This document shows, piece after piece, positions 25,737 through 29,311 of a DNA stretch of 64,000 bases; position 1 is the stretch's first letter; every line of letters begins with the position of its first letter. The stretch is from Geothrix sp. (GTDB lineage: Bacteria > Acidobacteriota > Holophagae > Holophagales > Holophagaceae). The position numbers and the translations under genes were made by a program. The notes under the pieces were generated by a model that did no database searches, was not told the origin of the DNA, and saw only the letters and a list, made by a program, of their open reading frames with translations. The stretch lies in assembly GCA_030824075.1 (NCBI GenBank), contig JAVBYJ010000005.1, positions 1-64,000 on the forward strand, written 5' to 3'.

Positions 25737-27122
25737 TCACGCGCCGCCCAGGGCGATGTCCTCCAGAAGGAGGCTCAGGCCAGCGCTGCTGCCATACCAG
25801 CGGAGGTCGCTGCCCACGGCCACGATGCGGGTGAGGAAGTCCCGCAGATTGCCGGCAAAAGTGATCTGATCCACGGGCTCTGCCAGGATTCCGTCGCGGA
25901 TGCGAAGGCCACTGGCACCGACGCTGAGGTCGCCGCTGACGGGGTCCACCGTATGCAGGCCCATGATCTCGGTGATGAGCACGCCGTTCCCGGCCATGCG
26001 AAAGAGGGCTTCCGGTGCGGTATCCCCTGCCACCGGAAACAGGTTGAAGGTGGTGGCTCCCGGTTGGCTGCCGAAACCGCGTCCAGCACTGGCGGTGGGG
26101 GTCAGGCCCATCTCGGCGGCGGTCTTGAGGGTGTGCAGATAGGTCTTGAGTACGCCGCCCTCGATCAGCACATTCCGGCGTGTGGGCAGGCCTTCGGCGT
26201 CCCAGGGTTCGGTACCGAGGGCCGGGCGGCCTGGGGCCTCGGTGAGGCGGCCATCATCCACCAGCGTGAGCAGGGGCGAGGCGATGCGCTCTCCCAGCTT
26301 TCCCGCGAAGAGGCTGCGCTGCTTGAGCACGGATTCGGCATCCAGCATGCCCGCGACGATGCCCAGCAGATCCACCGCCACCTCCGGGTGAAGGACCACG
26401 GAGTATCTCCCGGCCGGCAGCCGTTGAGGGTTCAGTTTCCGCTCACCCTTGAGTGCGGCCTCGGCACCGATGGCGGCGAGGTCGAGCCCTGGGCGCCGCG
26501 AGACATCCCAATGCCACGCTGCCTGGCGCTCCTCCCCATCCGCCACCGCCAGTTCGATGGAAGCCGAGCAGCTCGACCAGAGATCCGCGGCCCGCACGCC
26601 CTTCTGGGTGAGCAACAGGCTGGCACCGGAGCCGTCGCTCCAGGCAGATTCCCGGACGGCAGCAACCTTGGTGGAAGCCCGCCGAGCCTGAGCTTCCAGG
26701 TCGAGGGCCCAGGTGATGCGCTGCTCGGGTGTGATGGCTTCGACCGTGCCATCGAAGCGGCTGGGAAGGTCATCGATGCCGGAGGGGTCGGCTTGCCGGA
26801 GCCAGGGATCCTCATCCCCGAGGGCGCTGAGTTCCCAGGCCTGGGTGAAGAGGTCGCGGAAATCCGGTGCGGCGAGATCCGTGGTGGTCGCGAGTCCTGT
26901 GCGGGAGCCCTTGTCTCCGCCGCGGATGACGCGGACCCCGAGCCCTCCGCGCTTGCTGGTCGTGAGGTCCTCGAGCGCTCCGTTCTGAACCTTGGCCTTG
27001 CGGGAACGGGATACGGAGATGAAGATTTCGGCCCCGTCCGCGCCCAACTTCAACGCGTGCTGGATGCCGTCCTGAAGGCGGGCTTCGAGGGCTTCGGGGA
27101 TGAAGGATGAGAAGGGCGTCAT
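25737..27122 (-). CDS. pmbA: TldE/PmbA-type subunit of the TldD/TldE protease
   Basis: Non-catalytic partner of TldD in a heterodimeric metalloprotease that trims peptides (microcin and RiPP maturation and CcdA degradation in E. coli). The 461-residue protein has GADGAEIFISVSRSRKAKVQNG near the start (within 27-48), GGLGVRVIRGG, then the C-terminal TMHT-like FRMAGNGVLITEIMG and LRIRDGILAEPVDQITFAGN. It lacks the HExxxH of TldD, as expected. ATG 27122 lies 2 nt after the stop of the coaE-tldD gene, so both subunits are made from one transcript. Confidence 0.93.
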   Translation of the reverse strand: MTPFSSFIPEALEARLQDGIQHALKLGADGAEIFISVSRSRKAKVQNGALEDLTTSKRGGLGVRVIRGGDKGSRTGLATTTDLAAPDFRDLFTQAWELSALGDEDPWLRQADPSGIDDLPSRFDGTVEAITPEQRITWALDLEAQARRASTKVAAVRESAWSDGSGASLLLTQKGVRAADLWSSCSASIELAVADGEERQAAWHWDVSRRPGLDLAAIGAEAALKGERKLNPQRLPAGRYSVVLHPEVAVDLLGIVAGMLDAESVLKQRSLFAGKLGERIASPLLTLVDDGRLTEAPGRPALGTEPWDAEGLPTRRNVLIEGGVLKTYLHTLKTAAEMGLTPTASAGRGFGSQPGATTFNLFPVAGDTAPEALFRMAGNGVLITEIMGLHTVDPVSGDLSVGASGLRIRDGILAEPVDQITFAGNLRDFLTRIVAVGSDLRWYGSSAGLSLLLEDIALGGA

Positions 27123-27124
27123 GG

Positions 27125-29209
27125 TCAGATCACACTCGGGAGGGGTTCGGCGGTGCCGCCGACGACGAGGGCAGGGCAAAGAATGGTGGGGAGAGCGTCG
27201 CTGACGGGCACGCCCTGGCCATCCTTGCCGCAGGTGCCGATATCGAAGTGATGAAGGTCGCTGCCGATGCGGGTGAGGTCCCTCAATACCTCGGGGCCGC
27301 AGCCACTGAGGGTGGCGTTCTTCACCGGGTATTGGGGCACGCCCTTCTCCACCCAGTAGCCCTCGGTCACCTGGAACACGAAATTGCCGGTGACCGTGTC
27401 CACCTGCCCGCCGCCCATGCGCTTCACGAGCAGGCCCCGGTCGAGATCCCGGAGGATGGCCTCCGGGGCCTCGCTGCCGGCCGCCAGAAAGGTGTTGCGC
27501 ATTCGGGGAATGGGCAGGTGACGGTAGCTTTCCCGGCGACCATTTCCGGTGGGTTCCGTGCCCATCTTCCGCGAGGTCTTCCGTGATTGCAGGTAGGCCT
27601 TCAGCACGCCGTTCTCGATGAGCACCACCCGGCTCGCGGGATGGCCCTCGTCATCAATGGCTTGGCTGCCCCGCTTATGGGGCAGGGTGCCGTCGTCGAT
27701 GATCGTGACGCCGTCGGCGGCGACCTTCTGCCCCAGCTTGCCGGAGAAGGCGCTCATGCCAGCCAGGGCGAGGTCCGCCTCGAGGCCGTGACCGCAGGCC
27801 TCATGGATCATGGTGCCGCCGGCGCTGCTGCTCAACACCACCGGGAACGTCCCGGCTGGGGCGGGCTGGGCATCGAGGGCCTGTATGGCGAGGCGGACGG
27901 CCTCATGCACCGTTTCCCTCACCGCTGCTTCCGTGAACAGCTCGAAACCGCGGGTTTCGCCCAGGGCCTGGTAGCCAGTCTGCAATTGCGCGCCGTCCCC
28001 AGCCGTGGCGTTCACCCGCAGCACCACCTGGGTGCGGTGGTCCTCGGTGATCCGGCTGGTCCAGGCGCCATTGACCTGTTCCGCTGCGGCGATCCAGACC
28101 CGCTGGGTGCTGTCGCCATAACCCACGGACACCTGCTTCAGGGCGCCGGGGCGAAGGGATTCCGCGTGGTCCCGGGCGAGGGTCTCGGTGCGCCGGACCA
28201 GGGCGACCTTGTCCGCCAGGCTGATCTGACCGGGATCCTGGGCCACCGGGCTGGGCGTGGGGAAGGTCCGGGCTTCCAGCGATGGAATGGCGGCAGGCGA
28301 GCCCTGTCCCGGAGCTGCCAGGGTGCGGGCGGAGGCCATCAGCTCGTCGAAGGCGGGGGCGATGAGATCGGCAAAGCGGGTCGTATCCCCATCCATCAGG
28401 CGCAGGCTGGCACCGAAGGTTTCCGAGGCGAGCACATCTTCCATCCGGCCGTCGTCCATGCCCAGGGCATGCGCCCGTCGGCGTTCCACAAACACTTCGC
28501 CGTAGTCGCCACCCCGGCTGAGGAGGGCGTCGAGGACATCACGGAACTGTTCAGGGCTGAATGGAGCGGGCATGGGCGGTCTCCAGCTGCGCGCGCGGCG
28601 GACCCTCCAGTCTGCCAGAAGGGCCGATTCCGCTCCCGCGAGGATTCCAGACAGATCCCTCCCGTCGTTGGGGATCACCAGATCCGCATGCAGGGCCCGT
28701 TCGGAGGCCGAGGCCTGGGCGTGCAACCGTGAAAGGGCCGCGTCCCGGGACAGCCCGTCGCGGGCCATCAGGCGCTTCACGCGCAGGTCCTCCGGTGCGT
28801 CCACGGTCCAGAAGGCATCGAAATGATGGGCTTTCCCCCGTTCCACCCAAAGCGCCGCATCCAGCACCGCGCCGCGCGTGTTGATCGGAAGGTTCCGCAG
28901 ACGGGTTTCCAGCAGGGCTTCGATGCGGGGATGGAGGATCGCGTTGAGCCGGGTCCGCGCGGCCCCATCCGAGAACACGTGGGAGGCCACCCATGCGCGA
29001 TCCAGAGTTCCGTCAGCCCGGAGGCAGGCTGGGCCGAAGGTGGCGATCACGTCGCTCAGTCCCTCACTGCCCGGTGCCACCACCTCTCGGGCCAATGCGT
29101 CCGCATCGATCAGGGACCAGCCCATGGAGGCGAGCAGGGTCGCCACGTGGCTCTTCCCAGCCGCGATGCCACCGCTGAGGCCTAGAAGAGGGAAGAGAGC
29201 AGCGTGCAC
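27125..29209 (-). CDS. Dephospho-CoA kinase fused in frame to TldD metalloprotease subunit
   Basis: One open frame of 694 codons holds two complete enzymes. Residues 1-205 are CoaE, the last step of CoA synthesis: Walker A GLSGGIAAGKS, SLIDADALAREVV, HPRIEALLE and FDAFWTVDAPEDLRVKRL. Residues ~213-694 are TldD: GRMEDVLASETFGASLRL, zinc motif HEACGHGLEADLA, PIPRMRNTFL, ending SGCGPEVLRD and IGTCGKDGQG. The GTG start at 29209 has GAGG 8 nt upstream. The natural TldD start would be the in-frame ATG at 28573, which has GGAG 7 nt before it, so TldD may also be made separately. No stop codon lies between. The gene symbols would be coaE and tldD. Confidence 0.9.
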   Translation of the reverse strand: MHAALFPLLGLSGGIAAGKSHVATLLASMGWSLIDADALAREVVAPGSEGLSDVIATFGPACLRADGTLDRAWVASHVFSDGAARTRLNAILHPRIEALLETRLRNLPINTRGAVLDAALWVERGKAHHFDAFWTVDAPEDLRVKRLMARDGLSRDAALSRLHAQASASERALHADLVIPNDGRDLSGILAGAESALLADWRVRRARSWRPPMPAPFSPEQFRDVLDALLSRGGDYGEVFVERRRAHALGMDDGRMEDVLASETFGASLRLMDGDTTRFADLIAPAFDELMASARTLAAPGQGSPAAIPSLEARTFPTPSPVAQDPGQISLADKVALVRRTETLARDHAESLRPGALKQVSVGYGDSTQRVWIAAAEQVNGAWTSRITEDHRTQVVLRVNATAGDGAQLQTGYQALGETRGFELFTEAAVRETVHEAVRLAIQALDAQPAPAGTFPVVLSSSAGGTMIHEACGHGLEADLALAGMSAFSGKLGQKVAADGVTIIDDGTLPHKRGSQAIDDEGHPASRVVLIENGVLKAYLQSRKTSRKMGTEPTGNGRRESYRHLPIPRMRNTFLAAGSEAPEAILRDLDRGLLVKRMGGGQVDTVTGNFVFQVTEGYWVEKGVPQYPVKNATLSGCGPEVLRDLTRIGSDLHHFDIGTCGKDGQGVPVSDALPTILCPALVVGGTAEPLPSVI

Positions 29210-29311
29210 GGATCGGACCTCGTTGGAAAGGGTGCCTGCGGACCAGACGGCATGGAACCATGTTCGGGCCTGATCTGGACAGGACAGGGCCTACCTTAGG
29301 TCAGCCTGCCC

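Follow-up and report, generated by a model that had tools for sequence, protein, structure and literature searches.

The coaE-tldD locus

The window analysed here is a stretch of 64,000 nucleotides of Geothrix sp. DNA. On its minus strand, a single open frame of 694 codons runs without a stop from 29209 to 27125 and joins a dephospho-CoA kinase (CoaE) to TldD, as the first-pass annotation had claimed. Since CoaE lacks its own stop codon, full-length CoaE is, as read from the sequence, always CoaE-TldD. Within the frame lies an ATG (28573-28571, Met213) with GGAG 7 bases 5' of it. The features of the locus are the following:

27125..29209, minus strand: coaE-tldD fusion gene, a 694-codon open frame with a GTG start and a TGA stop, the frame being common to 69 distinct sequences
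29217..29221, minus strand: GAGGT, the Shine-Dalgarno of the CoaE start, 7 bases 5' of the GTG at 29209
28586..29209, minus strand: CoaE domain, residues 1-208, matched by Pfam at 9-183; the final helix (187-208) enters the linker
28574..28621, minus strand: junction block, codons 197-212 (CTTCTGKCANACTGGARGRTCCGC...TGGAGA), with near-zero synonymous variation in Geothrix
28580..28585, minus strand: putative internal Shine-Dalgarno TGGAGA, Trp209-Arg210, with an AGA/AGG codon bias at Arg210
28571..28573, minus strand: putative internal start ATG, Met213, start of the proposed free TldD; ATG in 63/63 distinct sequences outside genus g23
27125..28573, minus strand: TldD part, residues 213-694, a zinc protease with HEACGH (469-474) and Cys660
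25737..27122, minus strand: tldE (pmbA), partner subunit without HExxxH, beginning 2 bases past the tldD stop

The upstream neighbour of the fusion gene in the window is a divergent accA-like gene (29260, plus strand).

The N-terminal part matches the CoaE profile PF01121 over residues 9-183 (163.6 bits against a Pfam cut-off of 27) and passes TIGR00152 (127 bits against 65.6). The P-loop GGIAAGKS (13-20) and the DAD motif (35-37) are both present, with the key P-loop Gly and Lys and the second Asp of DAD invariant in 69 sequences. We assign it to the CoaE family on the profile score and these motifs, and its kinase activity is predicted. The C-terminal part carries the TldD/PmbA domains PF01523, PF19290 and PF19289 (residues 238-277, 325-445 and 453-685), which score 23.2, 34.1 and 236.9 bits against Pfam cut-offs of 20.9, 20.9 and 22. 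It scores 309.5 bits against the E. coli-type NCBIfam equivalog NF008006, below the cut-off of 513, and is TldD in the broad sense, outside that equivalog. HEACGH and Cys660, which is the third zinc ligand, are both intact and invariant among relatives, as are the HExxxH and GTCGKDGQ blocks as a whole. His469, His474 and Cys660 align to H262, H267 and C454 of Escherichia coli TldD, where these residues are the zinc ligands (PMC5810440). The earlier observation that both catalytic motif sets are intact therefore holds. In E. coli, protease activity requires both TldD and TldE (PMC5810440); here a tldE lacking HExxxH, the gene of the catalytically silent partner, lies directly downstream. An AlphaFold2 model of the fusion is confident (pLDDT 89, pTM 0.86) and places the end of the last CoaE helix (187-208) a few residues short of the start of TldD.

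Spread of the fusion

The fused frame recurs in 69 distinct sequences, a count that includes the window's own (the main set is 64-86% identical to it), all from Holophagaceae, that is Geothrix and its neighbours, with isolates and complete genomes among them. At the junction, every one of them is free of stops and indels. The genome of the window holds a single CoaE and a single TldD, every complete match in 36 same-genus relatives is fused, and public genomes contain dozens of fused loci, including that of Geothrix fermentans DSM 14018. A search of the family placed CoaE within a frame of at least 676 codons in 69 of the 73 genomes with a CoaE match. Of the 4 exceptions, two are 1.2-Mb genomes with a lone CoaE and two (G010, G031) contain broken pieces.

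Chance or artefact is excluded because 69 distinct sequences share the same open frame and a clean junction. A sequencing or assembly error that merged two normal genes by erasing the stop or frameshift between them might be suspected in a window drawn from an 85-contig draft assembly, but isolates and complete genomes have the same fused frame, which refutes this reading and leaves its probability negligible. Hence the lost stop or frameshift that the first-pass annotation had named as a possible refutation is ruled out, and the gene is a true in-frame fusion that relatives share.

Some database entries call for separate comment. L089 (UBA8503), which is the gene also seen in G010, is a fused gene split by several frame changes; this is probably an assembly problem, because the neighbouring pieces stay 79-98% identical. 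Three public contigs labelled Proteobacteria, Bacillota and Deltaproteobacteria (L074, L081 and L091) carry a Holophagaceae-type copy of the gene and are probably mis-assigned metagenome bins.

Origin of the fusion

Among the best matches listed from 396 genomes of the phylum (even sampling covered Acidobacteriota only), unbroken matches over both parts come from Holophagaceae only. In f48, a more distant family of the phylum, coaE adjoins tldD unfused: two genomes have coaE, a TGA or TAA, nine bases and the tldD ATG in the same frame, and two more genomes show a 4-base overlap of the genes. The f48 stop sits at the codon equal to Trp209 (TGG) of the fusion, so a single TGA to TGG substitution could have joined the genes. 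Given this unfused, same-frame arrangement, the fusion probably arose through loss of the stop between coaE and tldD. In other families of the phylum (L113, L114, L117) the order is folD-coaE-tldD, with coaE and tldD separate but touching, and tldE comes next in L113 and L114.

A reduced-genome genus of Holophagaceae (L128 and L129, from genomes G060 and G061, ~1.2 Mb) has a divergent standalone CoaE that ends at the linker, and a search of this genus for TldD and TldE gave zero matches. CoaE can therefore function without its partner.

Conservation of the putative internal start

In a first set of sequences the Met213 codon is ATG in 62 of 63 and GTG in the remaining one, and the residues flanking it on either side are variable. 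Outside g23, with duplicates taken out by hand, codon 213 is ATG in all 63 distinct sequences. The codon for Arg210 is AGA in 44/51 and AGG in 5/51; elsewhere in the same genes, which serve as the baseline, only 1.5% of Arg codons are AGA and 4.8% are AGG (~6% together). The rare codon yields TGGAGA-6-ATG, a good Shine-Dalgarno. Sequences with another residue at 210 mostly have Ser (AGT) or Lys (AAG) there, codons that preserve a comparable stretch of purines. The gene thus has a conserved internal start codon with a putative ribosome binding site, as in known genes within genes. Two findings speak against an internal start: 19 other codon positions have a Shine-Dalgarno-like energy as good as that of codon 213, and two sequences outside g23 (L070, L090) keep the ATG with no clear Shine-Dalgarno. 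A third (L069) is without the upstream block.

Silent sites upstream are under strong constraint. On the Geothrix tree, codons 197-207 show 17 third-position changes, where 11-codon windows average 79.5; this is the smallest number in any of the 674 windows, and in the family without g23 they rank 2 for fewest such changes. Pairwise synonymous variation in Geothrix falls to zero near codon 201, the lowest synonymous window of the gene. The constraint lies mainly 5' of the Shine-Dalgarno, at codons 197-204. Within the constrained block the first and second positions vary more than the third (GCA/TCA, AAC/GAC/CAC, AAG/AGG, GTC/ATC), and therefore selection acts on the nucleotide sequence, not on the residues. 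Because silent sites are also constrained here, the linker's dN/dS is no guide to selection on protein.

The junction is less folded than synonymous shuffles, as is usual for start regions, and the fold of the window's own junction has a z of 0.49. A conserved RNA hairpin was considered and rejected: the structure that RNAalifold predicts is weak in Geothrix (-5.5 kcal/mol) and absent family-wide. No known RNA family matched the junction.

A second stretch with few silent changes lies inside TldD at codons 507-517 (27659-27691, minus strand). Over the family, third positions changed 56 times in these 11 codons, where the mean is 148; it is the lowest window when g23 is left out.

Loss of the putative internal start in genus g23

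The genus g23 is monophyletic and comprises six sequences, some from complete genomes (the tree does not include one of them, L112, whose reading stopped at residue 217). Here the block is replaced (CTC CTG GCC CAC), the Shine-Dalgarno is replaced (TGG CGC), and codon 213 is GTG in one species and GGC, which is not a start, in another (L109). The fused frame is still open, and silent-site change at the junction is unremarkable (rank 496 of 674). Joint decay in one clade, here a single event, argues that block, Shine-Dalgarno and ATG form one device that serves to make free TldD. A confounder is mutation bias, which may have contributed to wiping out the silent-site signals in g23: this genus has the highest third-position GC (0.95-0.99), although relatives at 0.94 keep the signals. 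Since g23 keeps the fusion after losing the internal start, the fusion alone is viable and tethered TldD is tolerated.

Two probable products from one gene

We consider it likely that the locus is an ancient fusion gene of the Holophagaceae, a family of soil and sediment bacteria, that yields two proteins, CoaE-TldD and free TldD. Initiation at the GTG (29209) would give CoaE-TldD, of 694 residues and ~75 kDa. Other ribosomes, their 30S subunits binding at TGGAGA, would start at the ATG (28573) and give a free TldD of 482 residues and ~52 kDa, and conservation of the site suggests that such initiation very probably occurs. The first-pass annotation had proposed that the internal ATG may also give free TldD; the conserved ATG, the rare AGA, the constrained silent sites and the joint decay in g23 all back this proposal. 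TldE would be translated after either product ends and could pair with both free and CoaE-tethered TldD. Judging from the unfused family, the stop between neighbouring operon genes would have been lost and tldD's own start retained. The internal start would allow more TldD/E than CoaE to be made, and g23 would later have given it up to rely on the fusion alone. The analysis yielded no evidence of mutual regulation between the kinase and the protease.

Could the cell instead make the fusion protein only, the internal ATG being a relic of a formerly separate tldD? The g23 genomes, which retain the fusion without the internal start, speak for such a reading, but a relic would decay, and outside g23 the ATG is universal, a rare AGA holds the Shine-Dalgarno and the silent sites upstream are near-static. 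We regard a fusion-only gene as improbable. A stronger competitor, in our estimation still unlikely, has free TldD made from a separate shorter mRNA: the block would act on tldD-tldE as an internal promoter or as the site of a regulator, and this transcript would use the Shine-Dalgarno. It would account for a constraint that falls chiefly at codons 197-204 and on nucleotides rather than residues. However, a search of the locus for a sigma-70 promoter and a terminator found none, with no sigma-70-like site between 28400 and 29500 (the search covered the sigma-70 type). Moreover, Geothrix genomes with the motif have it only once each, and therefore no regulon is seen; a repeated element or regulon site was rejected on this single-copy count. 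Silent-site constraint is likewise found at frameshift sites, and a programmed frameshift near codon 197 could free CoaE from TldD, but in the other two frames the first stop falls anywhere between codon 204 and positions past 600, without conservation, which makes this reading most improbable.

Returning to internal initiation from a two-product gene, what might the role of the upstream block be? Codons 197-204 may act as a ribosome standby or enhancer site, as an internal promoter, or as a binding site. More tentatively, and at somewhat less than even probability, we suggest that the block CTTCTGKCANACTGG, located 25-48 bases 5' of the internal ATG, represents a new type of cis-acting element, one to which ribosomes (or RNA polymerase) are recruited within a coding frame, having evolved with the fusion so that TldD is made without CoaE and having been discarded in the fusion-only genus.

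Our findings also bear on how genes fuse and how they are annotated. The family and its relatives provide a natural record of fusion by stop-codon loss, with the unfused pair in a distant family, the fusion with its old start under selection in most of one family, the fusion without that start in one genus, and CoaE alone in the reduced-genome genus. Gene callers would list one fused gene, while silent-site selection says that a second product matters, so annotation likely misses a protein. This raises the question of whether the tether between CoaE and the protease is functional, or tolerated because the protease is still made alone.

Comparison with known systems

A literature search found nothing that combines dephospho-CoA kinase with TldD, or Geothrix with dephospho-CoA kinase. 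Relative to the literature searched, what is new is the CoaE-TldD pairing, its family-wide conservation and the silent-site element guarding the internal start; both domains belong to known families.

Residues 213-694 have the same fold as E. coli TldD (5NJ5) of the heterodimeric TldD/TldE (PmbA) metalloprotease (target TM 0.89-0.90, 36% identity), and share with it HExxxH, the third Cys ligand and an adjoining tldE (PMC5810440), but the Holophagaceae protein has a complete CoaE at its N terminus. The CoaE fold of the fusion resembles known CoaE structures (4I1U and E. coli 6ARI), with a TM of up to 0.88 to 4I1U and the P-loop intact; unlike a standalone CoaE, it has no stop of its own and its last helix reaches almost to the start of TldD. 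Actinobacterial CoaE (6N39, of the PRK03333 type) and animal CoA synthase (2F6R), two-domain proteins that were also among the matches to the fusion, likewise combine CoaE and a second domain in one chain. To our knowledge, the partners of CoaE in these proteins are not proteases.

Internal in-frame starts in bacterial genes are already known, as in rpn, where one frame likewise gives a full-length product and a C-terminal product from an internal ribosome site (PMC10327210). The short product of rpn is the antitoxin of the long one, whereas the internal product of the Holophagaceae gene would be a whole, once-separate enzyme.
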